This document shows positions 25,137-53,243 of a stretch of DNA of 64,000 nt, piece by piece. The DNA comes from Bacteroidales bacterium. GTDB lineage: Bacteria > Bacteroidota > Bacteroidia > Bacteroidales > UBA932. The stretch covers positions 1 to 64,000 of the forward strand of contig SUYL01000009.1 in the NCBI GenBank assembly GCA_015060445.1, in the 5' to 3' direction. Both the position numbers and the translations under genes were made by a program. The notes beneath the pieces are model-generated. The model saw nothing but the letters and a program-made list of their open reading frames with translations, did not search any database and had not been told where the DNA came from. Within the stretch, counting starts at the first letter, position 1. Each line of letters opens with the position of its first letter.

Positions 25137-27431
25137 ATGAAAAGGGTATTCATTTTTGTATTGGCGGCGTTTGCTGCATTTCTCATGATATCCTGTGGAA
25201 CTGCAGCAGGTGGTTTTACGGAGGCAGAGAAGGAGATTATAAATGCTTCTCCCGATGATATACTCAAGGTCTTGACTGTCGGGAGTGAAGAGGAACTCTC
25301 CGTGTTGAGGAGGGTTTCAGAAGATCTTTCTCATGAGGAACTTGAGGGGGAACTTTATGGGTTGCTGGCCAGGAGAATGGTTGAGACCGTTTCAGATTCC
25401 ACTGTAGATGGTGTTGGGCTGGCCGCTCCCCAGATAGGGATAAACAGGAATATAGTGGCTGTGCAGAGGTTCGACAAGCCAGGTGCCCCGTTTGAGGTTT
25501 ATCCCAATATCTCTATTGTAGAGTATTCAGATTCGCTGGCATTGGGGCCTGAGGGGTGCCTTTCGGTTCCGGGCCGCAGACATGATGTGGAGCGTTCAAC
25601 AGGGGTTACAATCAGATATTATTCCCTTGAGGCCGGTGCTATGGTTGAGGAGAAGATTGAGGGGTTTACAGCAGTGATTTTCCAGCATGAGGTGGATCAT
25701 CTTGGAGGAGTCCTGTATATAGACCGCCTTCCCGAATTTCTTACTTATGCAGAGGAGACCATGTTCCGCAAGACCCCAAAATATGATCAGACTATGGCCT
25801 TTTTCCACCGTCTGGAGGAGTATTCTCCGATGGTTAATGTAACCTCCTTTGGAGAATCTCCACTTGGCAGGGAATTGCCCCTGGTGATTGTAGATAAGGA
25901 TGGGTTGCGTTCGCCTGAGAAGATACGTGCAAAAGGGAGGGTGATTATTCTTGTGGAGTCTTGTATCCATTCTGGGGAGCCTGATGGGAAGGATGCCTCA
26001 ATGATATTTTTGAGGGATCTGGTTGCGGGAAAGAGGAATATTGGATTGCTGGATGATGTGAGTTTCCTGTTCATTCCAATCTTCAATGTTGACGGGCATG
26101 AGAATTTTACCGCACTCAACAGAATTAACCAGAATGGTCCCGACGAGTTGGGTACCAGGAACACCTCGCAGCAGTTGAACCTTAACCGCGATTTCCTTAA
26201 GGCGGATGCCCCCGAAATGAGGGCATGGCTGCAGATGTACAACTATTGGCTTCCGGAACTCTTTATAGATGTGCATGTTACAAATGGTGCAGATTTCCAG
26301 TATGTGATGACCTACGCCATTGACAACATGACAGGCAATATGGAGCCTGGGATTACCCGTTGGAGCCGTGATGTTTATGAGAAGCAGTTGTGCGGAATGA
26401 TGGAACAGGCGGGATACCCTATATTTCCGTATGGTTCCTTCAAGAAATATAATGCTCCCGAGAGCGGTTTTGTGCCGGATACTTTTGATCCGCGCTACTC
26501 CCAGGGGTATGCTGCAGCCCATAACAGGTTGGGACTCCTCATAGAGAACCATATCTATAAGCCTTATGGCCAGAGGGTTGATGCTACCGTAAAGGCCCTC
26601 TGGGCAAGTGCCCGCATTCTGGCAGAAAATAAAGGGTCTCTGGTGGAGACTTTGGCTGCGGCTGATGCTTTTGTTTCATCCCCTGCCTCCAGAAAGGAAC
26701 CTTTCGGGTTCAGGTACAGATCTACAGAAGATTCCCCTGTGATAGTGGATTATTTGAGTTGGGGCCGTGATACCGTTTTGAGTGATTTGAGCGGTGGGGA
26801 GTGGGTTACTCATGACTATTCAGACCCAATAACCATGAGGATACCGTTCTACCCGTCTTTTGCTCCGGCGGATTCTGTGTATCTCCCTAAGGCTTATATA
26901 CTTATGCCACAATGGAAAGAGGTTGTGGATCTGCTTGCCCTCCATGGGGTGAAATACTCCGTTCTACCTGAGTCTGGAGAGGTGGAGGTGGAAACTTACC
27001 GTTATACCGGAGGAAAATTCTCTTCCCGACAAAGTGAGGGGCGCATTACGGTAACTCCACAATTTACTGCCCAGATTGAGAAACTGCAGTATCCTGCAGG
27101 GAGCATCTATATAGATATGGACCAGCCTGCTTCCAGGGTTGCCATGTGGCTCCTGGAGCCTGCCGCTCCCGGTTCCCTTACCTATTGGGGTTTCTTTAAT
27201 GTATGCGTACAGGCCGGCAACGAGTTCTGGATCCGTCCCCAGTATATGGAGGTGAAAGGGCGCGAAATGCTTGCCTCAGACCCTGCCCTGAAGGCCGAAT
27301 TTGAAAAGAAATTGCGTGAAGACCGCTCCTTTGCCTCTTCTCCTCAGGCAATTCTCGGCTACTTCTACGATATAGTCCGCAAACGTGCCCATCAGAACAA
27401 TGAACTTCATCCTGCTTGGCGTGTATTGTGA
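25137..27431 (+). CDS. Exported peptide deformylase fused to M14 metallocarboxypeptidase
   Basis: 764 residues from ATG at 25137, which has a good ribosome site (GGAGG). A lipoprotein signal ends at Cys20 (LMISC). The first domain has all three peptide deformylase motifs: GVGLAAPQ (92-99), EGCLS (139-143, metal Cys141) and HEVDH (184-188). The second has the M14 zinc site: HSGE (His278, Glu281), His380 in FIDVHV, Arg351 in LNRDF, and a candidate catalytic Glu470 in LLIENH. A beta-rich tail follows. Deformylases normally act on nascent chains in the cytosol; an exported copy joined to a carboxypeptidase would act on free N-formylated peptides outside (inference). The stop codon lies inside the left arm of a palindromic element. 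Confidence 0.85.
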   Translation: MKRVFIFVLAAFAAFLMISCGTAAGGFTEAEKEIINASPDDILKVLTVGSEEELSVLRRVSEDLSHEELEGELYGLLARRMVETVSDSTVDGVGLAAPQIGINRNIVAVQRFDKPGAPFEVYPNISIVEYSDSLALGPEGCLSVPGRRHDVERSTGVTIRYYSLEAGAMVEEKIEGFTAVIFQHEVDHLGGVLYIDRLPEFLTYAEETMFRKTPKYDQTMAFFHRLEEYSPMVNVTSFGESPLGRELPLVIVDKDGLRSPEKIRAKGRVIILVESCIHSGEPDGKDASMIFLRDLVAGKRNIGLLDDVSFLFIPIFNVDGHENFTALNRINQNGPDELGTRNTSQQLNLNRDFLKADAPEMRAWLQMYNYWLPELFIDVHVTNGADFQYVMTYAIDNMTGNMEPGITRWSRDVYEKQLCGMMEQAGYPIFPYGSFKKYNAPESGFVPDTFDPRYSQGYAAAHNRLGLLIENHIYKPYGQRVDATVKALWASARILAENKGSLVETLAAADAFVSSPASRKEPFGFRYRSTEDSPVIVDYLSWGRDTVLSDLSGGEWVTHDYSDPITMRIPFYPSFAPADSVYLPKAYILMPQWKEVVDLLALHGVKYSVLPESGEVEVETYRYTGGKFSSRQSEGRITVTPQFTAQIEKLQYPAGSIYIDMDQPASRVAMWLLEPAAPGSLTYWGFFNVCVQAGNEFWIRPQYMEVKGREMLASDPALKAEFEKKLREDRSFASSPQAILGYFYDIVRKRAHQNNELHPAWRVL

Positions 27432-27554
27432 CGTTGTCTTTTTGTACAATTGTTTGGTTTCCAAACAATTGCAAAATGAGGTGCATGGAATTTCCAGCAC
27501 CTCATTTTTTTATTTTGCTGAAAATCAGCAAAATGTACAAAATCACGTCGTGAT
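27428..27554. repeat. Cloverleaf palindromic element a (127 bp)
   Basis: The closing stem (27428-27448 with 27534-27554) has a decayed left arm. Three hairpins lie inside: ATTGTTTGG/CCAAACAAT (27449-27469), AAAATGAGGTGC/GCACCTCATTTT (27473-27508, with an added inner TGGAA/TTCCA stem) and ATTTTGCTGA/TCAGCAAAAT (27512-27534). The left arm contains the stop codon of the deformylase-peptidase gene. The right arm runs straight into the activator-like palindromes at 27555. The middle hairpin plus TTTTTTT may also end transcription. Confidence 0.85.
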
Positions 27555-27590
27555 TGTAAGATTCCCTTACACCTGTAAAGTTTCTTTACA
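27555..27590. promoter_or_regulatory. Tandem activator-like palindromes upstream of tolC
   Basis: Distal TGTAAGATTCCCTTACA (27555-27571) and proximal TGTAAAG-TTT-CTTTACA (27574-27590) have centres 19 bases apart. They lie 55 bases upstream of the -24 element. The block is nearly identical to 37417-37452. Confidence 0.75.
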
Positions 27591-27645
27591 CTTTTTATTA
27601 TGTGATTATTTATGTAAGTAACATATATACAGATTGTTAAGATGT

Positions 27646-27662
27646 TTGGCACGGGCATTGTG
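27646..27662 (+). promoter_or_regulatory. Sigma-54-like promoter of the tolC operon
   Basis: TTGGCACG-GGCA-TTGTG: a consensus -24, and a -12 of TTGT in place of TTGC, with the right GG to G(C) spacing. It lies 37 bases before the start codon. Confidence 0.75.
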
Positions 27663-27699
27663 CCAAGAGAGGGGAAAACGGTAAAAGTGTAAAGGAATT

Positions 27700-29127
27700 A
27701 TGATTAAAAAGTCAATAATATCGGTTATTTGGGGAGCGATGGCGGTGGTGATGCTGTCGGGAAGAGGTACAGTATATGCACAGGAGAAGGTTTATACCCT
27801 AAAGGAGTGTATGGAGTATGCGGTTTCCAATTCAACTCAAATGAGGATACAGCAAGCCAATACAAGGGATGCCCAAGTGGAGAGGAGGAGTGCGATACTT
27901 CAGGCGTTTACACCGGCAGTTTCAGCAGGTACTTATGCATATTACAATTTTGGACGCTCGGTGGATCCGGAGACCAATACCTATAAATCTACAACATCGT
28001 TCCAGAACGGTTATTCGGCCTCGGGTTCCATAACCCTTTTCAATGGGTTTGAAGCGTTGAACAACCTTAAAATCTCCAAAACTGCCGCCGCTATGGGGCT
28101 GAGCCTGGAGCAGCAGACAAGGGACGGGATTTGCCTGGCCACAATGGAGGCTTACTATAATGTCATTTACCATCACCAGATGTGCAAGGCATTGACTCAG
28201 GAGGTGGAGGCTGCAGCCAAGGCGGCCCATCTTGCAAAAAGGGAAGAGGAACTGGGGAGGAAAGGTTATGCGGATGTGGTGCAGATTGAGGCTGATCTTG
28301 CAGCAAAGGAGTACAGGCTTACCACTACCAGAAATATGTACAACGATGCCCTGATGACTCTTAAAGATGTGATGTTCTGGCCTTTGGATGAGGAACTGAA
28401 TATAGATTTTACCATTGCAGATGACTCCCTGCTTGCAAATGCGGAAGAGTTGGTGTATGGCGGTTCATTGGATGATTGTCGGGAAGAAATTATTGAAAAT
28501 GCGGTGAATAACCTTCCTGCAGCAGCATTGGCAAAAGGGGAGATGATGAATGCCAAACGGGCACTCAGCACCGCCAGGATGCAGTTGCTCCCCTCTTTAA
28601 GCCTCAATGGCGGTTGGAGTACCAGTTATTTCACTTATCCCGACGAAAAAGGTTACAAGGCAGTCCCTTTCAAGGACCAGTTCTCAAATAATATGGGTGA
28701 ATATATACAATTGTCTATGTCTATACCTATTTATGGTCGTCTGAACAGACAGGCAAACATTTCACGCAAGAAAAATGCATATGTGAGGGCAACAGCCCAG
28801 TATGAGCAGAAAACGAGGGAGATAGAGGCGGAAGTAACTCGTGCCCTTCAGGATAAGGAAGGTGCCCAGGCGGCTCTGCTGCAGGCTTGCAGGCAAGCCG
28901 AAGTTCAGCAGGAGGCTTACAAATACAGTACCCGAAAGTTTGAGCAAGGGCTGATTTCCCCTATTGAATACCAGACCTCTTCCGGCAACTGGCTTGCAGC
29001 CAAAGCCGAACAGATCAACGCATTGCTAATGTTTTATTTGAAGAGTAGTGTTGTGGAGTATTACAGCGGCGTACCTTACCTGGAGCAGAAAGTCGGTGAC
29101 CGACTTAACTCGGGGACCGAGTTTTAA
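27700..29127 (+). CDS. TolC-family outer membrane efflux protein
   Basis: 475 residues with a signal peptide ending near VYAQ. The long helical barrel has two repeats, with YTLKECMEYAVSNSTQMRI at the start and FTPAVSAGTYAYYNFGRS and LLPSLSLNGGWSTSYF as the strand segments of each half. It forms the outer membrane duct for the HlyD-like adaptor that follows. The start has AAAGGAATT upstream; the half site GTGTAAAG overlaps this ribosome-site region. The end of the gene contains two back-to-back palindromes (29090-29123). It is the first gene of the sigma-54-like operon. Confidence 0.92.
   Translation: MIKKSIISVIWGAMAVVMLSGRGTVYAQEKVYTLKECMEYAVSNSTQMRIQQANTRDAQVERRSAILQAFTPAVSAGTYAYYNFGRSVDPETNTYKSTTSFQNGYSASGSITLFNGFEALNNLKISKTAAAMGLSLEQQTRDGICLATMEAYYNVIYHHQMCKALTQEVEAAAKAAHLAKREEELGRKGYADVVQIEADLAAKEYRLTTTRNMYNDALMTLKDVMFWPLDEELNIDFTIADDSLLANAEELVYGGSLDDCREEIIENAVNNLPAAALAKGEMMNAKRALSTARMQLLPSLSLNGGWSTSYFTYPDEKGYKAVPFKDQFSNNMGEYIQLSMSIPIYGRLNRQANISRKKNAYVRATAQYEQKTREIEAEVTRALQDKEGAQAALLQACRQAEVQQEAYKYSTRKFEQGLISPIEYQTSSGNWLAAKAEQINALLMFYLKSSVVEYYSGVPYLEQKVGDRLNSGTEF
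29090..29123. repeat. Twin palindromes at the tolC/hlyD junction
   Basis: AAGTCGGT-G-ACCGACTT (29090-29106) is followed directly by AACTCGG-GGA-CCGAGTT (29107-29123), in the last codons of tolC. The second shares AACTCGGGGACCGA with the reverse complement of the repeats at 39911-39951. Confidence 0.75.
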
Positions 29128-29160
29128 AAATTGATTTTGAAAAATAATAAAATTTGTTAT

Positions 29161-30417
29161 ATGGATAAGATTATAGAAAAGAAGAAAGGTTTGGCGGCGG
29201 CGTTTACCGGAAGGGCTTTGCCGTATTGGTTGGGGGCATTTGTTGTGGTTTTTGTCTTGTGGCTAATATTTAGGGACAATTCAAGTACTTTGAGGGTGAA
29301 TGGAGAGACACTTTCGTATGGGAATGTGGTCAGAGGGGAGTTCAATGATTATATAAGGGTTACAGGGCAGGTGCAGCCTATGACAACAATACATATATCA
29401 CCTCTTGAGGGTGGAGTTGTGCAGGAGATTGTTACGGAAGAAGGTTCAAAAGTAAAGAAGGGGGATGTGATTCTGGTGCTGAGCAATGAGAGCCTCGATC
29501 TCCAGATTCTCAACTCGGAGGCTGAACTGGCGGAGAAAGAGAACATACTCCGCAATACCATGATCTCAATGGAGCAGCAGAAGTTGAGCGTGCATCAGGA
29601 GATGCTCCAGTTGAGGATTGAGGTGCGAAGGAGCCGCAGGGCTTATGAGAGTGCCAAGGAATTGTATGCGGAGAAACTTATTTCCCGAGAGGAGTGGCTG
29701 AAGGCTGAGGAGGATTTCATGCTGGCGTCGGACCGTCTGGAACTGGTGGAGACACGTGCCAAACAGGACAGCCTGTACAGGGATGTTGAGATTACCCAGA
29801 TGAGGGAGAGTCTGGACAATATGCGCCTTAATATGAGGATGATCCGCAAGAGAAAGGAGAATCTTACCATAAAGGCCCCTATAGATGGGGAACTTGGTTT
29901 GCTGGATGTTGCTCTTGGACAGAGTATTGCGGCCGGTACCAAGGTGGGGCAGATAAACAATTTGGATTCCTATAAGATTGAGGCACTTGTGGATGAGCAT
30001 TATATAGACAGGGTAACTGCTGGCCTCATGGCCCAATTTGAGAGACAGGACGAGAAATACAATACTGTTATCCGCAAGGTTTATCCGGAGGTGCGTGACG
30101 GCAAGTTCAAGACCGATTTCAAATTCAGCGGGGAGCAGCCTGCCAACATCCGTACCGGCCAGACCTATTACCTGAACCTTCAGTTGGGCCAGCCTGAGGA
30201 GGCGGTTATGATACCTCGCGGAACATTCTACCAGAAAACAGGGGGCCGTTGGATCTATGTAGTCTCAGAAGACGGAACCAGCGCCGTAAAACGCCCAATC
30301 CGTATTGGCCGCCAGAACCCTCAATACTACGAGGTACTTGAAGGCCTGGAGCCTGGCGAAAGGGTTGTAGTAAGCGGGTATGACAACTTTGGGGACAATG
30401 AATTATTAGTGTTTTAA
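29161..30417 (+). CDS. HlyD/RND-type membrane fusion protein
   Basis: 418 residues from ATG at 29161. One N-terminal helix (about 18-36) anchors it in the inner membrane. A lipoyl-like half site (VEGGVVQEIVTEEGSKVKKGD type, seen here as SPLEGGVVQEIVTEEG) precedes a long coiled-coil hairpin (about 125-225) and the second half IKAPIDGELGLLDVALGQ. Beta-barrel and membrane-proximal domains end the protein. It links inner membrane permeases to TolC. Its stop codon overlaps the first base of palindromic element b. Confidence 0.9.
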   Translation: MDKIIEKKKGLAAAFTGRALPYWLGAFVVVFVLWLIFRDNSSTLRVNGETLSYGNVVRGEFNDYIRVTGQVQPMTTIHISPLEGGVVQEIVTEEGSKVKKGDVILVLSNESLDLQILNSEAELAEKENILRNTMISMEQQKLSVHQEMLQLRIEVRRSRRAYESAKELYAEKLISREEWLKAEEDFMLASDRLELVETRAKQDSLYRDVEITQMRESLDNMRLNMRMIRKRKENLTIKAPIDGELGLLDVALGQSIAAGTKVGQINNLDSYKIEALVDEHYIDRVTAGLMAQFERQDEKYNTVIRKVYPEVRDGKFKTDFKFSGEQPANIRTGQTYYLNLQLGQPEEAVMIPRGTFYQKTGGRWIYVVSEDGTSAVKRPIRIGRQNPQYYEVLEGLEPGERVVVSGYDNFGDNELLVF

Positions 30418-30533
30418 TCACGTCGCAATTTTGTACAATTTGCTGAAAATTAAGTATGTAGTAAATGAAGGTTTTTTAAGGTGATTTTTTAATAGTTTGA
30501 TTCTGAGTTAATTGTACAAAATTGTGACGTGAT
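30417..30533. repeat. Palindromic element b (117 bp)
   Basis: Outer arms of 24 bp (30417-30440 with 30510-30533), ATCACGTCGC... with one G-T pair. The interior is AT-rich without clear hairpins and nearly identical to element c. It starts at the last base of the adaptor stop codon and ends 12 bases before the next gene. Confidence 0.85.
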
Positions 30534-30545
30534 AATAGAAAAACT

Positions 30546-32936: not shown

Positions 32937-32945
32937 CTAATTTTA

Positions 32946-33062
32946 ATCACGTCGCATTTTTGTACAATTTGCTGAAAATTAAGTATGTAGTAAATAAAGG
33001 TTTTTTAAGGTGATTTTTTAATAGTTTGATTCTGAGTTGATTGTACAAAAATGCGACGTGAT
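32946..33062. repeat. Palindromic element c (117 bp)
   Basis: Perfect 23-bp outer arms (32946-32968 with 33040-33062). The interior matches element b apart from a few bases. The arm differs from b by an A-to-T change that is matched by T-to-A in the other arm. It lies between the permease stop and the response regulator promoter, flanked by TA on both sides. Confidence 0.88.
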
Positions 33063-33073
33063 TAAAAAAATTG

Positions 33074-33081
33074 TATATTTG
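33074..33081 (+). promoter_or_regulatory. -7 box directly before the NtrC-type gene
   Basis: TATATTTG ends 7 bases before the ATG at 33089, so the mRNA would be leaderless or nearly so. No TTTG at -33 spacing was found. It suggests constitutive expression of the regulator apart from the sigma-54-like operons. Confidence 0.55.
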
Positions 33082-33088
33082 CGTAATT

Positions 33089-34510
33089 ATGGCAACAAAG
33101 ACTAAAGGGAAAATATTGGTTGTTGATGACAATGCAGGGATAAGGGGGGCACTGAAGGTGCTGCTCCCTTTGCATTTTGAGCAGGTGGAACTGATTGCCT
33201 CACCAAAGGAACTTATGGCAAAGATGAACCAGTTCAGGCCAAATGTGGTGCTGCTGGACATGAATTTCCATACAGATATAAATACCGGGAACGAGGGGCT
33301 GTACTGGGTGGCGGAACTCAAGAAGTATTTTCCGCAGACTGAGGTTGTCCTCTTTACAGCGTATGCCGATATCCAGTTGGCGGTGGAGGGGATGAAGCGC
33401 GGGGCGTTTGATTTTGTTGTAAAGCCATGGGATAATGCAAAACTTGTGGAGATACTTGCCAAGGCGGTGGAGAAGAACCGCAAGGAGCAGAAACAGAGCC
33501 CTCAGCAGGTTCAGCAACAGGTTCTTCCCGACAAAATGATCTGGGGAGAGTCTCCGCAGATGCAGGCAATACGGAGGACAGTGGAGAAGATTGCCCCTAC
33601 AGAAGCCACAGTGCTCATTACCGGAGAGAACGGTACAGGAAAGGATGTCCTTGCAGGGGAGATTCACAGCAGGAGCAGCAGATGCAGCAGGCAGATGGTG
33701 AGCGTGGATGTTGGAGCCCTCACCGAGACCCTTTTTGAAAGCGAACTGTTCGGGCATGTGAAAGGGGCCTTTACGGATGCCCATGCAGACCATACCGGCA
33801 AGTTTGAGCAGGCCAACGGTGGAACCCTCTTTCTGGATGAAATAGGTAATATCCCAATCCATCTGCAGGGGAAACTCCTGAGGGTGCTGCAGAACAGGTG
33901 CATTACCAGAGTGGGAGATACCCGTCAGATTCCTATAGATATCCGCCTGATTTGTGCCACCAATATGGATCTGGAGCAGATGATCAGGGACGGCAAGTTC
34001 AGGGAAGACCTTTACTACCGCATAAATACCATGCATATTGTATTGCCTTCATTGAGGGAGCGTATGGATGAGATCAAGCATCTGGCAGAGCAGTTCATGA
34101 CAAGATATGCCCAGAAATACGGGAGGAATGTGAAACACATAGACCATCAGGCACTCTCGGCCCTAAAACTCCACCGCTGGAGGGGAAACATTAGGGAACT
34201 CAAGAATGCAATTGAAAAGGCTGTTATTATGAGTGAAGGGGAGACTCTTACCCTCCAGGATCTGCAGATGAGCATTTCTCTTCCCGACAACTCCCTATCT
34301 TCCCACAGTCCAATGTCTTTGGGTGGTGGAGCATCGCATGCACAAGGAAAAGGGGAACAGGAATATAACGGGGAGACCCTTGAAATGCAGGAGGAGAGGA
34401 CAATCCGGGCAGCAATGGAGAAATGCGGAGGCAATCTCTCCCTGGTTGCCAAGACCCTCAACATCTCCCGTCCTACATTGTACTCAAAATTGAAAAAATA
34501 CAACATTTGA
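33089..34510 (+). CDS. NtrC-family sigma-54-dependent response regulator
   Basis: 473 residues from ATG at 33089. The receiver domain has Asp57 in VVLLDMNF, a Thr in LFTAYA and Lys in VVKPWD. The AAA+ domain has Walker A GENGTGKD (179-186), the sigma-54 contact loop GAFTDA (226-231, in place of the textbook GAFTGA) and Walker B GGTLFLDEIGN. A Fis-type helix-turn-helix is near the C terminus (NLSLVAKTLNISRPTLYSKL). It very probably binds the TGTAAAG-N3-CTTTACA sites and activates the four sigma-54-like promoters (inference). The kinase gene follows after 8 bases. Confidence 0.93.
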   Translation: MATKTKGKILVVDDNAGIRGALKVLLPLHFEQVELIASPKELMAKMNQFRPNVVLLDMNFHTDINTGNEGLYWVAELKKYFPQTEVVLFTAYADIQLAVEGMKRGAFDFVVKPWDNAKLVEILAKAVEKNRKEQKQSPQQVQQQVLPDKMIWGESPQMQAIRRTVEKIAPTEATVLITGENGTGKDVLAGEIHSRSSRCSRQMVSVDVGALTETLFESELFGHVKGAFTDAHADHTGKFEQANGGTLFLDEIGNIPIHLQGKLLRVLQNRCITRVGDTRQIPIDIRLICATNMDLEQMIRDGKFREDLYYRINTMHIVLPSLRERMDEIKHLAEQFMTRYAQKYGRNVKHIDHQALSALKLHRWRGNIRELKNAIEKAVIMSEGETLTLQDLQMSISLPDNSLSSHSPMSLGGGASHAQGKGEQEYNGETLEMQEERTIRAAMEKCGGNLSLVAKTLNISRPTLYSKLKKYNI

Positions 34511-34518
34511 TTGTCGGG

Positions 34519-35730
34519 ATGCTGAAAGTGATTCTCATATTGCTGGTTATTGCGCTGGTGTGCTTCCTGTACACTGTCTATTTGTGGCACAAGACCAATG
34601 AGAAACTCACTTTCATGCTGGATTCCTTGGATAATGACGATGTAAATTTCAGGTTCCGGGAGAGGCTTTTCTTCAATGCCTCACTTAACCGTACACTCAA
34701 CCGCCTCAGGGGGATTTATGAGAAGAGGCAGAATGAACTGCGGGAACAGGAGCAGTATTTTGCCCGTATGCTGGAGAATGTGCAAACCGGAATTGTGGTA
34801 GTTGAAGAGTTGCATGGAAGGATACTTTTCTACAATAATTTTGCAAAAGTGCTGCTGGGAATGGAGCAGGTGTCGCACCTGAGGCAGATAAAGCGCTTGA
34901 ATGAGCAACTTTATGATGCCTTCATTGCAGTAAAGCCGGGAACGAACCTCAAGGCCTCCTACTACAATGAGAGCGCATCTGTAAATATCCTCCTTTCGGC
35001 CTCCTATGCATCGCTGAAAGGGAAAGATGTGAAGATTGTGGCTGTGAGCAACATTGACCCGCAGTTGAGTGAGAACCAGGAAGAGAGTTGGAACAAACTC
35101 ACCAGAGTCCTTACCCACGAGATTATGAACACAATTACCCCAATTGTTTCGCTGAGCGATACCCTCAACCAGTGTGCGGTGGAGGATAAATTGGATTCCA
35201 ATTACATCTCCGGGCTGGAGACAATTTCCGCTTCATCCAAAGGGCTGCTCAGTTTTGTGGAGTCTTACAGGAGCCTCACCAGGGTGGCTGCCCCTATCAG
35301 AAAATCTTTCCTTGTGAGTGAACTGGTAGAGAGGGTGTTCCAACTTACCGCCCCTTACACTTCTGATGTTGGGATTGGGACAGTTTACATAGAGAAGACC
35401 GAGGATGTAATCCTTTGGGCAGATGAGAACCAGATAGCCCAGATACTTATAAACCTTGTGAAGAATGCGGCGCAGGCCGGGGCCACCCGCATAGAGATTT
35501 CTGTTGAACTGGATTCCCTTGAAAATGTGGTGATTGAGGTCTTCAATAATGGCGCCCCAATTAGCGCAGAAGGGCGCGAAGAGATTTTTGTCCCGTTCTA
35601 CACCACCAAACAGGAGGGTACCGGCATAGGTCTCTCCCTCTCCCGACAAATCATGCGACTTCACAACGGCTCCCTCACCCTTTCCCGCAGTGACGAAAAG
35701 GGGACGGCATTCAAATTGAGGTTTTCGTGA
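34519..35730 (+). CDS. Sensor histidine kinase partner of the NtrC-type regulator
   Basis: 403 residues from ATG at 34519. One N-terminal helix (about 3-23) without a large periplasmic part suggests sensing at or inside the membrane. A PAS-like region (about 80-170, ENVQTGIVVVEELHGRILFY) precedes the H box LTHEIMNTITPIVSLSD, N box LINLVKNAAQAG and G boxes FNNGAPI and GTGIGLSLS, an NtrY/AtoS-like arrangement. Adjacent to the regulator gene, so a cognate pair. Its stop codon sits in a half copy of the palindromic element (35727-35736). Confidence 0.9.
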   Translation: MLKVILILLVIALVCFLYTVYLWHKTNEKLTFMLDSLDNDDVNFRFRERLFFNASLNRTLNRLRGIYEKRQNELREQEQYFARMLENVQTGIVVVEELHGRILFYNNFAKVLLGMEQVSHLRQIKRLNEQLYDAFIAVKPGTNLKASYYNESASVNILLSASYASLKGKDVKIVAVSNIDPQLSENQEESWNKLTRVLTHEIMNTITPIVSLSDTLNQCAVEDKLDSNYISGLETISASSKGLLSFVESYRSLTRVAAPIRKSFLVSELVERVFQLTAPYTSDVGIGTVYIEKTEDVILWADENQIAQILINLVKNAAQAGATRIEISVELDSLENVVIEVFNNGAPISAEGREEIFVPFYTTKQEGTGIGLSLSRQIMRLHNGSLTLSRSDEKGTAFKLRFS

Positions 35731-35736
35731 CGTGAT
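35727..35736. repeat. Half element d (right arm only)
   Basis: GTGACGTGAT is identical to the right end of element b and overlaps the kinase stop codon. No matching left arm was found. Confidence 0.4.
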
Positions 35737-35740
35737 TATA

Positions 35741-35748
35741 TATCTTTG
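35741..35748 (+). promoter_or_regulatory. -7 box of the nucleotidase gene
   Basis: TATCTTTG ends 4 bases before ATG at 35753. This again predicts a leaderless mRNA. TTG at 35716-35718 is near -33 spacing. Confidence 0.45.
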
Positions 35749-35752
35749 GGGT

Positions 35753-37351
35753 ATGAAAATAGAAGCAAGATTATTATGCCTGCTGGCTGTGCTTTTTGTG
35801 GTGGGATTTGCCAAAAGCGACAAGGGGACTCAGTTGCCACAGAGCCCTGTGGTGATATTGTTTGAGAATGATGTCCATTGTGCGGTGGAGGGATATGCGA
35901 AGATGGCGGCCCTTAAGGCAGAGGAACAGGTACATACACCATATGTTACAGTGGTGTCATCAGGAGATTTTGTACAGGGGGATGTGATAGGTTCCGTTAC
36001 AGAAGGGGAGTCCATAGTTGGTATAATGAACAGGGTAGGATATGATTTTGTGGCCCCTGGAAACCATGAGTTTGATTTTGGAATGGAGCGGCTGCAGGAG
36101 ATTGCACGTGATTTGCAGGCAGAAGAGTTATGCGCAAATTTCACCTCAAATAAAACTCAAGAGCCTGTATTCAAGCCATATGGCATTGTGGATTATGGAG
36201 GTTGCCAGGTAGCATTCATAGGGCTGATTACCCCATCAACCGCAACATCTGTAATTCCAAAGACTTTCCAGGATGAGGAGGGGAATGTTGCCTACGGATT
36301 CAATTCCGCCAATCTCTTTACCTGTGCCCAACAGTGGATAGACAAGTCCAGGAGTGAGGGGGCAGATTACGTGATAGTGTTGTCCCATCTTGGGGATATC
36401 AAGGAGGGGGATTACCCTACATCTGTAGAGTTTATCGGGAATACAACTGGGGTAGATGTGGTGCTGGATGGCCATTCCCACACTGTTATTCCCGACAGTC
36501 TTGTGTTGGATAAGGAGGGGCGGCAGGTGCTGCTGGCTTCTACCGGAAGCAGGTTTGAATTTGTCGGGAAACTGGAACTCTCTGTTGAAGGAAAATTCTC
36601 TTCAGAACTCCTGCCGGCAGAGACTTTGCAGGATGCTCCGGAGGTTGCGGCATTTGTGGAGGAGTTGAAGGAGGGGGTACTTGCTGCAGGGGAGAGGATT
36701 GTAGGGCATCTTGAGGAGGATCTGCTTGCACTGGATTCCAACGGCGACTGGCTTGTGAGGGACAGGCAGATGCCTATTGGAACTTTTTGTGCCGATGCTT
36801 TCCGGGAAGTGCTGGGTACCGATATTGCCATGATAAATGGCGGAGGCATAAGGAACAACCTTTATGCAGGAGATATCTCCTACAATGATCTTCTCTCTGT
36901 GTTTCCTTTTGGAAACAATGCCTGCACCGTTTCACTAACAGGAGCGCAACTGGCAGATATACTTGAGGCCTCTGTAAGGTCTCTTCCTCTGCCCAGCGGC
37001 AGTTTCATGCAGGTGAGTGGGGTGCGCTACAATTGTGATGTGTCTGTGGCTTCTCCTGTAGAGTTGGATGACAGCGGCCTTTTCCTTGGTATCCGCCCGG
37101 GGGCCTCCCGACGAGTCTCAGATGTTCAGGTACTTGACAAATCCACAGGGAATTATCTTCCGGTAAACCCCTCTGCAACATATACCCTTGGCGGAATAGA
37201 CTACAACCTCGCCAACCTCGGCTCTGACGGCATGTTCCGCTACACCAAACTTCTACGGAGTAACCAGGGGCTGGATGTGGATGTATTGTCCCAATTTTTA
37301 TCACGACGCGATTTTGTACAATTGTTTGGTTCCCAAACAATTGCAAAATGA
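35753..37351 (+). CDS. Exported 5'-nucleotidase/2',3'-cyclic phosphodiesterase family protein
   Basis: 532 residues from ATG at 35753. A signal-like N terminus (KIEARLLCLLAVLFVVGFA) is followed by the metallophosphatase domain (about 30-280), with metal motifs FENDVHC, SSGDFVQG, PGNHEFDFG, VLSHLGD and DGHSHT. The UshA-type C-terminal domain (about 325-500) contains MINGGGIRNN. It should hydrolyse nucleotides or related phosphoesters in the periplasm. The last 17 codons and the stop are read from palindromic element e, so the C-terminal tail is element-derived. Confidence 0.88.
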   Translation: MKIEARLLCLLAVLFVVGFAKSDKGTQLPQSPVVILFENDVHCAVEGYAKMAALKAEEQVHTPYVTVVSSGDFVQGDVIGSVTEGESIVGIMNRVGYDFVAPGNHEFDFGMERLQEIARDLQAEELCANFTSNKTQEPVFKPYGIVDYGGCQVAFIGLITPSTATSVIPKTFQDEEGNVAYGFNSANLFTCAQQWIDKSRSEGADYVIVLSHLGDIKEGDYPTSVEFIGNTTGVDVVLDGHSHTVIPDSLVLDKEGRQVLLASTGSRFEFVGKLELSVEGKFSSELLPAETLQDAPEVAAFVEELKEGVLAAGERIVGHLEEDLLALDSNGDWLVRDRQMPIGTFCADAFREVLGTDIAMINGGGIRNNLYAGDISYNDLLSVFPFGNNACTVSLTGAQLADILEASVRSLPLPSGSFMQVSGVRYNCDVSVASPVELDDSGLFLGIRPGASRRVSDVQVLDKSTGNYLPVNPSATYTLGGIDYNLANLGSDGMFRYTKLLRSNQGLDVDVLSQFLSRRDFVQLFGSQTIAK

Positions 37352-37416
37352 GGTTCCAAGAACCTCATTTTTTATTTTGCTGAGAATCAGCAAAATGTAC
37401 AAAATCGCGTCGTGAT
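37300..37416. repeat. Cloverleaf palindromic element e (117 bp)
   Basis: A perfect 21-bp closing stem (37300-37320 with 37396-37416) encloses three perfect hairpins: 37321-37341 (ATTGTTTGG/CCAAACAAT), 37345-37371 (12-bp stem, loop CAA) and 37374-37396 (ATTTTGCTGA/TCAGCAAAAT). Almost every base is in a stem. The left part overlaps the 3' end of the nucleotidase gene. Confidence 0.92.
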
Positions 37417-37452: not shown

Positions 37453-37507
37453 CTTTTTATTTGGTGACAATAGGTGTAAATAGCAGTAAAACAGTTGTTT
37501 ACATTCT

Positions 37508-40699: not shown

Positions 40700-40826
40700 A
40701 TCACGTCGTGATTTTGTACAATTGCTTGCAAATGAGAATGTTGTAAATTGCCAAGGCTTAAAGTTTACAAAATGCTATTTTGTAAAGTGTTGAAGATTAA
40801 TAATTTGTACAAAATTGCGTCGTGAT
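40700..40826. repeat. Palindromic element f (127 bp)
   Basis: Imperfect 22-bp outer arms (40700-40721 with 40805-40826). Inner hairpins are TTGC/GCAA, GCC/GGC and a 10-bp TTTACAAAAT/ATTTTGTAAA, so a cloverleaf-type fold is possible. A second copy of the arm start (GTTACAAAATCAC) lies just outside at 40678-40690. Confidence 0.75.
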
Positions 40827-43229: not shown

Positions 43230-43238
43230 TCAACAATA

Positions 43239-43365
43239 ATCACGTCGCAATTTTGTACAACTTGCTCATTATGAAGGTTGTATAAAATTGCAAAAGTGAG
43301 AATAATGAGATGAAGATTTTATAAAGTGTTAATAGTTAATAAGTTGTACAAAATTGCGACGTGAT
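43239..43365. repeat. Palindromic element g (127 bp)
   Basis: Perfect 25-bp outer arms (43239-43263 with 43341-43365). Inner complementary segments CTCATTAT/ATAATGAG and TATAAAAT/ATTTTATA interleave, so they would form a pseudoknot rather than separate hairpins. Flanked by TA on both sides. The element ends one base before the next start codon. Confidence 0.85.
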
Positions 43366-43366
43366 T

Positions 43367-45715
43367 ATGAAAAGTTATTTCAGATTCCTTTCCCGCAACA
43401 AACTCTACACTGCCATTGAGGTGGTGGGGTTCAGCATTGCCCTGGCGTTTGTAGTCTTCATTGCCACTTTTGTAGCAGGGGAGTTGGGGTATGACAAGAA
43501 TCTTAAAGGTACGGAGAACATATTTGTAGGTCATGAGGATCACTTCTCAATTATGAGTTATACTGTGGGTGATATTGTAAAGGAGACCTGCCCCGAGGTG
43601 GAGGAGGTGTGCAGTTTCCTTGCAACCTCAGTAATTGGTGGTGTGGCAATGGAGAAGAGTGTGGGGGAGGAGACAACCCCACAGAATGCAATAATAGCGG
43701 ATACCTCTTTTTTCAGGTTCTTCACATTTCCGTTTGTGGAGGGGAGAAGGGAGGATGCCCTTTCGCAGCCGGATGCGGTGGTGGTGAGCGAGTCGTTTGC
43801 CAACGCACATTGGGGAGAGAAATCTCCAATAGGGGAGAAGGTTCAGATTATTGTAGGAAAAGAGAAAAGGGACCTATTTATAACCGGAGTATATGAGGAT
43901 ATCAAAAGGTCGGTTTTCCCTAAGGCGGATATAATCTATGGTATGCACCACATAAAGGATATGTATCCCAATCTCATTAGAGAAGGTAACGGTACGGCAG
44001 TAAACTTCTACAGGATAACTGAGGGGGCAGATCTGGAACAGGCACAGGAGAAGGCCCTTGCAAAACTTAAGGAGTCGGATATTCTGTATGAGGTTGGTCT
44101 TATGAAGAACTTCTATTTCTCCCCATTCTCTCAGATACATTATGGGGTGAGCGTGCAGAGTTTTCCTTTTGAGGGGACAATTAACTTCAATTTTGTAATG
44201 TTGTTCCTGGCTGCAGGAATCCTGCTGTTGGCATTTGCGCTGCTCAACTATATCTCCCTCACCGTTGCCCAGATAGGATTCAGGGCAAATGAGATGGCCA
44301 CCCGCAGACTTCTCGGAGAGCAGAAATGGGAAATTGCTTCCCGATATATCAAGGAGGCCCTTCTGCTCACAGTGTTTTCCTTCGTGTTGGCACTCCTGCT
44401 CATAGAGGTATTCGGCCCTGTTGCAAAGGAACTTGTCGGGAAGGAGATCTCCCTTAAGGATAATCTTGGTATATGGGAAATTGTACTTATGGTGGCATTT
44501 GTGTTTGGAGTGTCGCTGCTGGCGGGAGTCATTCCTGCCCTGCTTGTGGCAAAATACAAACCAATTGATGTGGTGAAAGGGGAGTATGCCGTGCAGGGAA
44601 GGATGTTGCTGGGGAAAGTTTTCATTGGGGTGCAGAATGTTGTGGCAATAGCAACCTTGTGCATATCGCTGGCAATGTTCATGCAGTTTCATCACCTTTT
44701 GGCGCGGGACAGCGGCTACAATAAAGACAATATCATTGCCCTTGAGGGGGCACAGAGGGGTGCAGATTATTATCCCGACGAACTTTTGCAGTTGCCTTTT
44801 GTAGAGGAACTGGGTTGGGTACAGGCCTCCCCTGCCCATCGCGACAGGAGCGGTATGGGAATGTTCCATAGAGGGGAGCAGGTGCAGTTGGAGGGGGTAT
44901 ATGGCGACAGTACCGCCTTCAGGATGCTTGGGTTCAATGTGGTTTCCCTGAATGGGGATGTACACCCCGCAGACGGCACATTATGGCTCACTGAGGGGGC
45001 TATGAAGGGGTTGGGGCTGGATTATTCTGAGAAAGAAGTGATATTCGGTTCCGGTGCCAATGATTCCCATGGCATTTGCGGTGTGATACGGGATTTCCAG
45101 AAAGGGGACCGTACCATGGAGGATTGTGCTTCTTCAAATATAATCTGGTGGAACATGGAGTATAAGGGGGAGGAGTCGTTCCCTTATTTGAGACGCATAT
45201 TGCTTAAGGTGAGCGGCGATGAGGATGTTGCTGCGGCTGAATTGGAAAAATTCTACCAGAAGCATGACAACGGTATTCATGTATATCCTCTGAACGGGCT
45301 TTATAGGGGCTATTTCAACTCCGAGGAGAATAATTTGAAACTGATTACAGCCTTTACCTTACTGGTAATCCTGCTCTCTGCAATGGCCATGCTGGCTATG
45401 AGCACCTACTACACCCGTCAGCAGTCGCGCAACTGGTCTGTCCGTAAGGTATTTGGCTGCAGCAGGGGAGAAGTGTTCCTGAATATGGCCATGGGCTTCC
45501 TTAAAGTTGTAGCCGTAGCAGCAGTTATTGCCGTTCCTCTTGGCTGGCTCGTTGTAGATAATTGGCTTGCCGGCTACTCCTACAGGATAGAAAACTACTG
45601 GTGGCTCTATGCAATTGCCCTGCTTCTTATTTCCCTTGTGGCTGTAGTCTCCATCTCATGGCAGGCTGTGCGGCTGATGAATTCCAATCCGGTTAAGGAG
45701 CTTAAAAAGATTTAA
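43367..45715 (+). CDS. ABC transporter permease, MacB-like (second subfamily)
   Basis: 782 residues from ATG at 43367; a GTG at 43361 inside element g is an alternative start. The N terminus MKSYFRFLSRNKLYTAIEVVG matches the permease fragment at 1-302. Layout: helix about 15-38, periplasmic domain, helices about 275-400, a helix near 420-440, a second periplasmic domain and C-terminal helices. The tail motif is SRNWSVRKVFGCSRGE. It is the last gene of the array; its stop codon runs into element h. Confidence 0.9.
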   Translation: MKSYFRFLSRNKLYTAIEVVGFSIALAFVVFIATFVAGELGYDKNLKGTENIFVGHEDHFSIMSYTVGDIVKETCPEVEEVCSFLATSVIGGVAMEKSVGEETTPQNAIIADTSFFRFFTFPFVEGRREDALSQPDAVVVSESFANAHWGEKSPIGEKVQIIVGKEKRDLFITGVYEDIKRSVFPKADIIYGMHHIKDMYPNLIREGNGTAVNFYRITEGADLEQAQEKALAKLKESDILYEVGLMKNFYFSPFSQIHYGVSVQSFPFEGTINFNFVMLFLAAGILLLAFALLNYISLTVAQIGFRANEMATRRLLGEQKWEIASRYIKEALLLTVFSFVLALLLIEVFGPVAKELVGKEISLKDNLGIWEIVLMVAFVFGVSLLAGVIPALLVAKYKPIDVVKGEYAVQGRMLLGKVFIGVQNVVAIATLCISLAMFMQFHHLLARDSGYNKDNIIALEGAQRGADYYPDELLQLPFVEELGWVQASPAHRDRSGMGMFHRGEQVQLEGVYGDSTAFRMLGFNVVSLNGDVHPADGTLWLTEGAMKGLGLDYSEKEVIFGSGANDSHGICGVIRDFQKGDRTMEDCASSNIIWWNMEYKGEESFPYLRRILLKVSGDEDVAAAELEKFYQKHDNGIHVYPLNGLYRGYFNSEENNLKLITAFTLLVILLSAMAMLAMSTYYTRQQSRNWSVRKVFGCSRGEVFLNMAMGFLKVVAVAAVIAVPLGWLVVDNWLAGYSYRIENYWWLYAIALLLISLVAVVSISWQAVRLMNSNPVKELKKI

Positions 45716-45832
45716 TCACGTCGCAATTTTGTACAATTGTTTGGTAACCAAACAATTGCAAAATGAGGTTCAATTGAACCTCATTTTTTATTTTGCTGGG
45801 AATCAGCAAAATGTACAAAATTGCGACGTGAC
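45715..45832. repeat. Cloverleaf palindromic element h (118 bp)
   Basis: The closing stem of 20-21 bp (45715-45735 with 45812-45832; the last pair is A-C) encloses three hairpins: 45736-45756 (ATTGTTTGG arms), a perfect 28-base palindrome at 45760-45787, and ATTTTGCTG/CAGCAAAAT at 45790-45812. Same plan as element e with compensating arm changes. It probably also ends the permease operon. Confidence 0.9.
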
Positions 45833-45902
45833 TGAACTTTTTCTCCCCCTTTGATGTTATGCTCAAGAGCAGGATAATCTGCTTCTTTAAACAGACAGAC
45901 TT

Positions 45903-47423
45903 ATGGAAAAGGAGAAAAGCAACCACAACCAGCAGGAGGAGAGACGCCGCACAGCGCTCACCTCATCAAACGGAAGGCCGGTGGCCGACAATCAGAATGT
46001 ACAGACAGCGGGGCAGCGCGGCCCAATGGTGCTGCAGGACCCGTGGTTCCTGGAGAAACTTGCCCATTTCGACAGGGAGGTGATACCCGAGAGACGCATG
46101 CATGCCAAAGGCTCCGGGGCGTACGGCACATTTACCGTAACACATGATATCACCCAATACACCCGCGCCTCAATCTTCAGCCATATCGGGAAGCAGACTG
46201 AGTGCTTTGTAAGGTTCTCAACTGTAGCCGGGGAGCGTGGCGCAGCAGATGCGGAGAGGGATATCCGGGGATTTGCCATGAAATTCTATACCGATACCGG
46301 AAACTGGGACCTTGTGGGGAACAACACTCCGGTGTTTTTCCTTCGTGACCCTCTAAAATTCCCAGACCTGAACCACGCCATAAAGAGGGATCCCCGCACC
46401 AATATGCGCAGTGCCAACAGCAACTGGGATTTCTGGACACTCCTTCCGGAGGCCCTCCACCAGGTTACAATTACCATGAGTTCCCGGGGAATACCATATT
46501 CGTACCGCCACATGCACGGCTTTGGGAGCCATACCTACAGTTTTATAAATGCGGCAAATGTCCGCACTTGGGTGAAATTCCACCTCCGCACCATGCAAGG
46601 TATAAAGAACCTCACAGACCAGGAGGCGGCAGCCATCATTGCAAAAGACAGGGAATCGCACCAGAGAGACCTCTACGAGAGTATAGAGCGTGGAGACTAC
46701 CCACGCTGGAAATTCCAGATACAACTTATGACCCAGAAGGAGGCGGAGACCTACCGCATAAACCCTTTTGACCTCACCAAAGTGTGGCCGCACGGAGATT
46801 TTCCACTCCATGATGTGGGAATCCTGGAACTCAACCGTAATCCCGACAACTATTTTGCAGAGGTGGAGCAATCGGCCTTCAACCCGCAGAACATCATAGA
46901 CGGTATAGGTTTTTCTCCCGACAAGATGCTCCAGGGACGCCTCTTCTCATACGGGGATGCGCAGAGATACCGCCTTGGGGTAAACCTTGAGCAGATTCCG
47001 GTAAACCGTCCCCGTTGCCCTGTACACTCATACCATAGGGATGGAGCGATGCGTGTCGACGGCAACTATGGCAGTACACTTGGGTATGAACCCAACAGTT
47101 ACGGGGAGTGGAAAGACAATCCTGAACTGAAGGATCCCCCTTTGAGGGTGACCGGCAGTGCCTGTGCCCACTCATCGGTGAAGAGTATCGGTGCAGATGT
47201 ATATAACTACAACGAGAGGGAGTACGATGATGACTACTACTCACAACCGGGAGATCTCTTCCGCCTTATGCCGCCTGAAGAAAAACAACTCCTCTTTGAA
47301 AATACCGCCCGGGCAATGGAGGGTTGCGCCGAATTCATTAAGATTCGCCACGCCCGCAACTGCTACAAGGCAGATCCCGCCTACGGCAAGGGGATAGCAA
47401 AAGCGCTTGGTGTAGTACTGTAA
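45903..47423 (+). CDS. katA: Monofunctional heme catalase
   Basis: 506 residues, the small-subunit clade. It removes hydrogen peroxide. The catalytic His is in [12 protein letters not shown], the distal Asn in [11 protein letters not shown] and the heme-ligand Tyr in [14 protein letters not shown]. It lacks the large-subunit flavodoxin-like tail. It stands alone between element h and a terminator. No OxyR-like site was recognised upstream. The symbol follows usage for this type in Bacteroides. Confidence 0.93.
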
Positions 47424-47452
47424 CGTAGATAACGTCACTTTAAATAAAACAG

Positions 47453-47483: not shown

Positions 47484-47570
47484 TGGTGCCCAGAACAAGA
47501 CTCGAACTTGCACACCGTAACCGGCACCACCCCCTCAAAGTGGCGTGTCTACCAATTTCACCATCTGGGC
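47484..47570 (-). tRNA. tRNA-Leu (anticodon GAG)
   Basis: 87 bases including encoded CCA. The reverse strand starts GCCCAGATGG and ends CTGGGCACCA, with a 7-bp acceptor stem. The anticodon arm CCACT-TTGAGGG-GGTGG gives GAG, reading CUY Leu codons. A long variable arm (TGCCGGTTACGGTGT region) and the T arm GTTCGAGTC are present, as in class II leucine tRNAs. Confidence 0.95.
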
Positions 47571-52134: not shown

Positions 52135-52149
52135 ATGTTTCAGTGTAAA

Positions 52150-53115
52150 ATGGAAAATATGGAAAATAAGGAATACGTAGTTGGTGTGGATATTGGAGGC
52201 CAGACCACAAAGATTGGAATAGTTGACAGAAGGGGAAACATAGTTGTACAGACAGTAATCAACTCAAAATACAAGGCAGGTGAAGCAGGCATATTTATCC
52301 AGTCTGTTTGTGATACAATAAGGGAACTTGCAAAAGAGGTTGGCTTTGAAAATATTCAGGGTATAGGTATAGGTGCCCCTAACGGCAACTACTATAAAGG
52401 TACCATTGAGGATGCTGCAAACCTTGAGTGGGCAAAAGGTATTGTTGTAGAGTTGGCTAAGGAGGTCTCACTCGCATTGGACAATCTTCCTGTTACAGTT
52501 ACCAACGATGCCAATGCGGCGGCAGTGGGTGAGATGACATACGGTGCAGCCCGCGGCATGAAGAACTTCATTATGATAACCCTTGGTACAGGTGTAGGAA
52601 GCGGTATTATCATTAACGGAGAACTTGTTTACGGACATGACGGGTTTGCTGGGGAGTTGGGCCACGTTACCGCAGTAAGGCATAATGGCCGCCCTTGCGG
52701 TTGCGGCAAGAAAGGGTGCCTTGAGACCTACTGCTCGGCAATAGGTGTTGCCAGAACAGCAGGCGAGTGGCTTGAACTTTCAGATGAGCCTTCACTTTTG
52801 AGGGAAGTTGACAACATAACTTCAAAAGATGTGTTTGAGGCTGCGCAGAAGGGTGATGCTTTGGCTCTTAAGATATTTGAGTTTACCGGCAGGAAACTTG
52901 GCGAGTCATTCGCAGATTTTGTTGCATTCAGTGCCCCTGAGGCTATTGTGGTGTTCGGAGGACTTGCCCGTGCCGGAGAATTCATCTTCAAACCTATACG
53001 CGAGGCAATGGAGGCCAATATGGTATCCATCTGGAAAGGTAAGGTAAAACTCCTCCCAAGTGCCCTCAAGGAATCAGATGCTGCAATACTTGGCGCTTCT
53101 GCACTGGCTTGGTAA
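52150..53115 (+). CDS. ROK-family sugar kinase (glucokinase-like)
   Basis: 321 residues from ATG at 52150; ATG at 52135 (directly after the porter stop) and 52159 are alternatives. The phosphate-binding motif is VGVDIGGQTTKIGIVD, the ROK signature includes ELGHVTAVRHNGRPCGCGKKG, and the zinc-binding pattern is CGCGKKGCLE. It phosphorylates hexoses entering through the adjacent porter (inference). The stop is followed at once by palindromic element i. Confidence 0.9.
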   Translation: MENMENKEYVVGVDIGGQTTKIGIVDRRGNIVVQTVINSKYKAGEAGIFIQSVCDTIRELAKEVGFENIQGIGIGAPNGNYYKGTIEDAANLEWAKGIVVELAKEVSLALDNLPVTVTNDANAAAVGEMTYGAARGMKNFIMITLGTGVGSGIIINGELVYGHDGFAGELGHVTAVRHNGRPCGCGKKGCLETYCSAIGVARTAGEWLELSDEPSLLREVDNITSKDVFEAAQKGDALALKIFEFTGRKLGESFADFVAFSAPEAIVVFGGLARAGEFIFKPIREAMEANMVSIWKGKVKLLPSALKESDAAILGASALAW

Positions 53116-53116
53116 A

Positions 53117-53243
53117 ATCACGTTGCAATTTTGTACAAGTAACTGAATAACAGTATTTTGTAAAATAGACATTCCGTAAATATACGGGGTGTCTATTTTT
53201 ATTTATTTGATAATCAATTGTTTGTACAAAATCACGACGTGAT
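53117..53243. repeat. Cloverleaf palindromic element i (127 bp)
   Basis: Outer 22-bp arms (53117-53138 with 53222-53243, a few mismatches). Three inner hairpins have sequences unlike those of a, e and h: ACTG/CAGT, a long AAAATAGACA/TGTCTATTTT with inner CCGTA/TACGG, and TTGAT/ATCAA. The fold is kept although the arm sequences differ. Confidence 0.78.

Follow-up and report, generated by a model that had tools for sequence, protein, structure and literature searches.

The first 64,000 nucleotides of contig SUYL01000009.1 of a Bacteroidales bacterium (GCA_015060445.1; this stretch is referred to as the window) raise the question of what kind of element is repeated behind the stop codons of an exporter gene array, where eight palindromic copies lie between positions 27428 and 53243. 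The genome, referred to as G000, comprises 2.18 Mb on 67 contigs and is 87% complete. Sequence comparison suggests that the elements are very probably REPINs, i.e., doublets of repetitive extragenic palindromic (REP) sequences, which are non-autonomous pairs of inverted ends that a REP-associated tyrosine transposase (RAYT, or TnpA-REP) of the Y1/HUH type moves as single strands able to form hairpins. What the comparison established is a family of structurally similar copies with RAYT genes beside some of them, a single insertion, and traces of copies since lost. An earlier note, made from the letters of the window, had considered a MITE-like mobile element (miniature inverted-repeat transposable element) and knew of no named element of this form. 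Mobility of that kind is borne out by dispersed copies, an empty site, and remnants, whereas the supposed lack of a name is not, since the kind matches REPINs, hairpin-forming REP doublets served by RAYT transposases.

A dispersed family with a paired core

Copies are spread through the genome and its relatives, far above the control. The end pattern CACGTCGYNNTTTTGTACAA, run over all of G000 with up to three mismatches, matched 31 times forward and 32 times in reverse, compared with 0 and 6 matches for the reversed pattern as control, and the copies beyond the window comprise more full elements, lone ends, and half elements that follow 5S rRNA. With up to two mismatches, the pattern matched in 11 of 41 genomes; several had one or two matches, like the control, and G007, G009, G006, and G023, all of the same genus as G000, had many. 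The search of relatives with a covariance model, which the earlier note had proposed along with a check for further copies, was carried out on 39 genomes of the genus with a model built on the 127-bp set (R1); 21 of them had matches at E ≤ 0.01, and one copy was often scored on both strands. These matches in other species have quite different ends, e.g., GGGGCGATGGTGC, GCAGGCTGGATTTTGC, CTGCCGCTTA, and GCGTTTTTGGCAA, and similar inner positions, which indicates that the core is common and the end varies.

An order-wide search of 198 genomes with a second model (R2) and stricter filters gave matches in G000 and five others, one or two in each, and the best outside the genus scored 3.8e-10 (G154). 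Follow-up of G154, G213, and G173 found few further weak matches, with the Y1_Tnp domain in G154 alone, and did not show the family outside the genus. One weak match outside the genus (L160:1501-1595, in G213, a genome without a Y1_Tnp match) has a similar-looking core and other ends. A plasmid comparison of window positions 27000-40000 gave no match, and in five sources Rfam assigned no family to the elements at gathering score and called only tRNA. The half elements, each consisting of one end and a hairpin, follow a hairpin after 5S rRNA at L013, L014, L015, and L022 (on C15, C34, C35, and C16, respectively). Rfam called 5S rRNA in L013 and L022, its only calls among seven further loci, and left it uncalled in L014 and L015, which start or stop at a contig end.

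Two conserved ends in inverted orientation form one unit. From fetched stretches of G000, G007, G009, G006, and G023, 77 pairings of ends were parsed, and 76 remained after three corrections and the removal of one duplicate (L020, L042, and window position 40663 were re-paired by hand before lengths were counted). Their lengths are 117 (8 elements), 118 (3), 126 (5), 127 (51), and 128 bp (4), with five longer elements of 154-374 bp. The two classes about one helical turn apart that had been noticed in the window, 117-118 and 126-128 bp, hold 11 and 60 elements, respectively (71 of 76), and none measures 119-125 bp. The narrow classes of 127 or 117 bp may reflect a protein complex gripping both ends. 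Element L012 (C24:68371), which was excluded from the length count and the alignment below, repeats L011 (C24:23450) with its flanks in inverted orientation about 45 kb away, either as part of a long inverted repeat or through misassembly. A GC-rich module with arms resembling TACCTTTGAAAAC ... GTTTTCAAAGGTA, which looks like a second, nested repeat, occurs in both orientations within the central hairpin of the longer elements L004:1065-1309, L038:3712-3915, and L052:1387-1593, and again downstream of the L007:975 end.

In a gap-free alignment (A1) of 49 of the 52 elements of 127 bp, the conserved positions are mirror-symmetric: T2, ACG at 4-6, G9, TTTT at 13-16, GTACAA at 17-22, YTGA at 27-30, CA at 35-36, T43, and AAA at 46-48. 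The outer 22 bp are 85-95% identical among 127-bp copies within G000, G007, and G009, and the mean identity of the variable core is 37-41% (32-33% when shuffled). Pairing as a closing stem with three hairpins stands above both controls, as the arm-covariation check proposed by the earlier note required: in the 49 elements, 76.1% of cells are paired compared with 67.9% in shuffled and 39-45% in slid controls, and the covariation score is 0.290 against a control of 0.159. Among 33 elements of mixed end types, 82.6% of cells are paired (58.6% shuffled, 38-45% slid), a count biased by the many rows that were found by the structure model. The spacer of copies with ACG-type ends is 73 or 83 bp and, when intact, folds into three hairpins with conserved positions of their own; the hairpins have decayed in several copies. 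With the five long elements excluded, the two outer arms of one element agree better with each other than with those of other elements in G000, G007, and G006 (16, 42, and 49 of 5000 permutations as low), and show no such excess in G009 or G023 (1603 and 4253 of 5000). The covarying pairing could have side effects, either in the RNA or through a DNA cruciform.

Within the window, all eight full elements described earlier were recovered at their positions: a (27428..27554, 127 bp), b (30417..30533, 117 bp), c (32946..33062, 117 bp), e (37300..37416, 117 bp), f (40700..40826, 127 bp), g (43239..43365, 127 bp), h (45715..45832, 118 bp), and i (53117..53243, 127 bp). The proposed cloverleaf is retained for a, e, and h (DNA folding z of -9.2, -14.1, and -12.7), of which e and h have the full stem and three hairpins, and the same four-stem DNA fold was found in L002 and L011 beyond the window (z of -9.2 to -17.3 across the five). 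It is retained in part for i, in which the closing stem persists, the central hairpin is strong, and the side hairpins are weak. Elements b, c, f, and g have mainly the closing stem left in the DNA fold, so that f, for which a cloverleaf had been suggested, gives no support to it. In b, which is 94% identical to c, the closing stem is intact and the inner hairpins have decayed. The claim that the outer arms are shared and pair is upheld only in part for a, whose left and right outer ends mismatch and whose outer stem is partly broken.

RAYT genes and their flanking elements

The Y1_Tnp domain (PF01797) was matched (E ≤ 0.001) in 27 of the 39 genomes of the genus, and several of the RAYT genes adjoin elements of this family. 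In G007, the RAYT gene lies between two full elements at distances of 80 and 83 bp, and one element terminates upstream of the gene in G009 (86 bp), G006 (47 bp), and G000 (66 bp). The RAYT of G000 is flanked on both sides by full elements (C13:6900-7016 and C62:131521-131647), as in G007, and is found in two parts, with the 5' part on C13 and the 3' part at the end of C62, the contig of the window, about 68 kb past the window. Both pieces break at inverted CATT..TGTCCGGTAAAA ends with TCTGTTTAT repeated, and by eye the gene looks to have been interrupted by an insertion sequence.

Elements matched by R1 at E ≤ 1 occur at 9 of 30 RAYT loci (L107, L118, L117, L113, L132, L133, L112, L108, and L109). 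A list of known ends was checked against 21 of these 30 loci (the nine without a protein from the open reading frame (ORF) filter were excluded), and ends were found beside RAYT at nine, four of them of the ACG type. Other end types adjoin RAYT in other species: a locus in G049 has three elements of the GGTTGTGG type, the RAYTs of G004 and G003 are flanked by GCTGCCGCTTAA ends, and those of G045 and G048 by GTGGCGGCTAA-like ends, while candidate end pairs were read by eye at the RAYT loci of G047 and G054. Ten RAYT loci are without an element of a listed type, namely one each in G049, G052, G044, G017, G050, G016, G023, G021, and G015, and the second locus of G004.

Across the genus, Y1_Tnp is present in all 13 genomes with at least 10 R1 matches compared with 8 of 18 with none (Fisher p 0.0013), where cut-offs were set after the tables had been seen, the eight genomes with 1-9 matches were excluded, and completeness was uncontrolled. 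In each of the seven RAYTs scanned, the Y1_Tnp match exceeds the cut-off set by Pfam. Across an alignment of 14 proteins, both histidines of HUH are unchanged and the tyrosine hardly varies; the six nearest RAYTs have NHAH or NHCH and YILxNP, with YILRNA in G009. An AlphaFold model of the G007 RAYT (mean pLDDT 63, pTM 0.54) was too weak to rely on, and a sequence search against solved structures gave one irrelevant match (E 0.37). Mechanistically, RAYT may recognise the ~22-bp end as an address, cut there, and transfer strands, and the RAYT of G007 would act on single-stranded GTNACGTTGTCTTTTTGTACAA ends.

Gain, loss, and change of ends at corresponding sites

An empty-site comparison, another check put forward in the earlier note, revealed that occupancy is patchy and not uniform among relatives. 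The site of element g is empty in G007 and G006, with no footprint, and g is an insertion relative to both. Loss was observed at three places. The supposed half element at 35727 is the ten-base sequence GTGACGTGAT (35727..35736), read as the deletion scar of a full 204-bp element present in G007 (L038:3712-3915); relative to G007, its left flank is fully aligned at 96% identity, and its right flank aligns at 93% after 57 unaligned bases. A second scar-like remnant, GTAACGTAGATAACGTCAC (47420..47438), lies where G007 has a full 127-bp element (L038:15481-15607), with 92% identity in the left flank and 81% in the right flank after 66 unaligned bases. The remnant GTGACGTTGTAAT on C44 is a clean scar, whose flanks (95 and 91%) align right up to it, at a site where G007 has a full element. 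REPIN excision is reported to leave about 6 bp of one end (PMC3116915). Deletion between short repeats in replication would give similar remnants, and the three remnants therefore show loss and not its agent. A tRNA called by Rfam on the minus strand at 47487-47570 adjoins the second remnant.

The other common places are less clear. A 127-bp element occupies the place of b in G007 and G009, and the place of f is occupied in G007, G009, and G023 and empty in G006. Core identity to G007 at b, f, L002 (twice), L008, L009, and L011 is 0.53-0.68, which is near the mean of 0.49-0.51 for unrelated copies and makes their orthology uncertain. For 23 of 26 elements of other genomes, there was no matching junction among the G000 loci compared. 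No element like c was found at its place in G007 or G009. In G009 (L060, ~7044-7298), that place is taken by another palindrome, present twice and containing GGGACGTCGTCCC or a similar sequence, and in G007 (L038:517-1073) by a 557-bp insert with small reading frames, as judged by eye; in G023 (L082) and G016 (L099), elements stand before the ortholog of the gene behind c, and the upstream gene differs. Elsewhere in G000, one element appears by inspection to be split by an IS3-like sequence between the end of C20 (L003) and the start of C50 (L006), with flanks that match those of L050 in G007.

In-place change of the ends was examined in eight pairs picked by hand out of 19 elements compared with relatives and judged from their flanks and cores to be orthologous between G000 and G007 (a, e, h, i, L004, L007, L017, and L023). 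At these copies, 11 of 16 ends in G000 are of a new type and 5 are of the G007 type. Element a, whose ortholog is L043:1395-1521, has a left end of the G007 type (GTGACGTTGTCT) and a right end of the new type (ATCACGACGTGA); both ends differ from G007 in e and i, and both have changed in place in h. Over the 16 ends, the outer 12 bp differ at 63 of 192 positions and the next 10 bp at 2 of 160, and the core differs at 92 of 718. Element L002:900, with a core identity of 0.68 (0.69 in i) and two new-type ends, was excluded from the eight pairs, and its inclusion gives 13 of 18 ends. As GTC-containing ends like those of G007 are also found in G009, G006, and G023, the end type of G000 is probably derived; a few ATC-type ends occur in G007 itself.

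The RAYT proteins of G000 and G007 are 68% identical over the 237 residues compared, and the neighbour protein between two elements is 98% identical. Corresponding values for RAYT and neighbour are 65 and 84% between G007 and G009 and 60 and 92% between G007 and G006, and RAYT thus diverges more than its neighbour in all three pairs. A possible explanation, which we put forward tentatively, is a modular element with a conserved three-hairpin core and a swappable address end. As RAYT diverged, the REPINs would have been re-addressed in place, end by end, through strand transfer by RAYT or conversion between copies, and not through new insertions. In the lineage of G000, the address may have gone from GTNACGTTGTCT to ATCACGTCGCAA and its variants, in place, at most of the common copies examined, while RAYT diverged. 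The change of ends fits a new specificity favoured by selection as well as strand exchange or conversion among copies.

Alternative readings and relation to known systems

Several observations weigh against the assignment to REPINs. Ends flank only 9 of the 21 RAYT loci checked, and the copy-rich genomes G023 and G016 have no element at their RAYT loci L122 and L121, with no cognate RAYT found (a weaker second match in G016 was left unexamined). The NCBIfam model of REP-associated tyrosine transposases matches all six RAYTs compared below its cut-off (22-53 vs 80 bits), and the apparent interruption of the G000 RAYT makes its current activity doubtful. The end sequences inspected have no GTAG/GTGG foot, the canonical mark of REPs, and the elements are therefore not classed as canonical GTAG REPs. 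In addition, lengths of 91, 129, and 132 bp occur among the matches listed for G006 and G023 in the wider R1 search, and elements whose ends are of other types range from ~106 to 129 bp, so that the narrow-length rule is confined to the parsed ACG-type copies. It is highly improbable that the copies are ordinary MITEs belonging to a DDE-type insertion sequence that duplicates a TA target and whose transposase shares their ends. The dispersed copies, the 22-bp inverted ends, and the TA on both flanks of c and g, seen at the outset and found also at three copies beyond the window (L002:900, L009, and L011), would suit such elements, but TA flanks are missing at other copies, and this inconsistency leaves TA target duplication not established. 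RAYT genes flanked by elements with matching ends in several species also argue against them, as does the fact that no gene-sized element between such ends was noticed among the G000 end matches, where single ends at contig ends could hide one and DDE transposases were not searched. Sites resembling integron attC or Xer sites were set aside after the RAYT flanks had come to light, and neither kind was searched for.

Two further readings are both compatible with REPINs. According to a simple ORF caller, 66 of the 77 elements lie between called genes and 11 inside called ORFs, some of which are doubtful calls; the occupied junctions are codirectional (35), convergent (22), or divergent (9), against a background of 150, 50, and 38 at the same loci. 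The adjacency to stop codons reported for the window is upheld, with elements a, b, c, e, f, g, h, and i lying -4, -1, 9, -52, 25, 9, -1, and 1 bp from the upstream reading frame, respectively; in e, that frame continues for 52 bp inside the element. The upstream frame of a and of both window remnants stops at a TGA or TAA that occupies end positions 2-4; in GTAACGTAGATAACGTCAC, this TAA closes the frame ending at 47423. Across the five genomes, 72 of 79 flanking 3' ends overlap an element or are no more than 30 bp away (median -1 bp). Together with compensatory changes and the terminator-like form of e and h on both strands, this would favour a structured intercistronic RNA kept for its function as a bidirectional terminator or stabiliser of mRNA 3' ends. 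Such an RNA is decidedly unlikely, however, as 34 of 53 flanking 5' ends are also within 30 bp (median 24 bp) and part of the adjacency is thus due to short intergenic gaps, terminator calls over 27000-46900 are not above shuffles overall (22 vs 18.7, sd 4.2), b, c, f, and g keep their ends and length without a long central hairpin, and losses occur. It is unlikely that the copies are host-selected sites for a DNA-binding protein, possibly a domesticated RAYT, with the helical-turn spacing and the in-place change of ends reflecting co-evolution of binding sites and not past transposition. Lengths that cluster at 126-128 and 117-118 bp, ends that stay alike while cores diverge, and ends that shift in the same direction at many loci are consistent with such sites, whereas patchy occupancy, losses, and an insertion among close relatives speak against them; self-complementary, covarying cores are unneeded by a protein that binds duplex DNA, and a constraint on spacer length has been reported for REPINs too (PMC3116915). 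As REPINs, the copies would persist mainly in the few bases after stop codons, and the central hairpin, if intact, could terminate or protect transcripts. The ten window proteins scanned are one outer membrane efflux protein, one HlyD-like protein, four MacB/FtsX permeases, one ABC ATPase, one histidine kinase, one sigma-54 response regulator, and one protein of deformylase/carboxypeptidase type.

Comparisons with known systems draw on the available parts of the papers cited. Among elements of similar length is RU-1, which is ERIC. RU-1 is a 127-bp, intergenic, MITE-like element of enterobacteria (PMC2759123), and its likeness to the present elements is one of length. The REPINs and RAYTs of Bertels and Rainey (2011; PMC3116915), described as inverted doublets in which spacer length and hairpin seem to matter, have in common with the present system the inverted ends, a hairpin spacer, compensatory changes, extragenic position, a RAYT nearby, and excision that leaves part of an end; the elements here differ in their ~22-bp ends without GTAG, their three-hairpin spacer of 73 or 83 bp, and the ends changed at orthologous copies. 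The Bacteroidetes TnpA-Y1 subclass 2.6 (RAYT group 5) is likewise reported with flanking "atypical secondary structures", copied elsewhere in the genome, and no GT[AG]G (PMC6006769); in a comparison by motif only, it has NH[LIV]H and YIH[QN]NP where the six nearest RAYTs here have NHAH/NHCH and YILxNP (YILRNA in one). TIRtrons (TIRYT; Di Nocera 2013, PMC3733652) are also RAYT-like genes flanked by inverted repeats, with a GGGGWSAS motif, and their repeats may form dispersed families, but most parsed repeats here are paired, with a narrow length and a structured core. The same paper reports CGTC repeats in Bacteroidetes; these have an 8-9 bp stem with CGTC as a tag at one end, and none was reported to flank a transposase gene. 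The CGTC string occurs in many ends here, within the 22-bp paired end adjoining RAYT and not as an unpaired tag of such a stem. BrickBuilt MITEs of Porphyromonas gingivalis (PMC4596501) are small intergenic inverted-repeat elements of Bacteroidales too, with ends that resemble insertion sequences of that species, 23-nt tandem repeats, and no mention of RAYTs in the paper; RAYTs are likewise unmentioned in the accessible parts of a second P. gingivalis paper. In the literature covered, as judged from titles and abstract openings and with few subscription papers included, RAYT-linked elements in Bacteroidales are described only in PMC6006769.

The REPIN/RAYT system is known in kind, and what is found here is a variant without the GTAG mark, in which the in-place change of ends merits further attention. 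It supplies an anatomy for RAYT-linked, non-GTAG elements of Bacteroidales, which appear in the available text of PMC6006769 only as "atypical" structures. It also touches on the open questions of how REPINs and RAYT stay matched and why hosts retain them; two groups of TnpA-REP are reported to co-evolve with their REPs (PMC8266576), and the persistence of REPINs has been discussed (PMC8049555). The orthologous copies of G000 and G007 offer a natural comparison, before and after the change, of RAYT specificity, end exchange, and any effect on gene 3' ends. If re-addressing in place is true, it would account for a joint shift in the specificity of a transposase gene and of dozens of dispersed sites, and REPIN populations would be a visible record of change in RAYT specificity.

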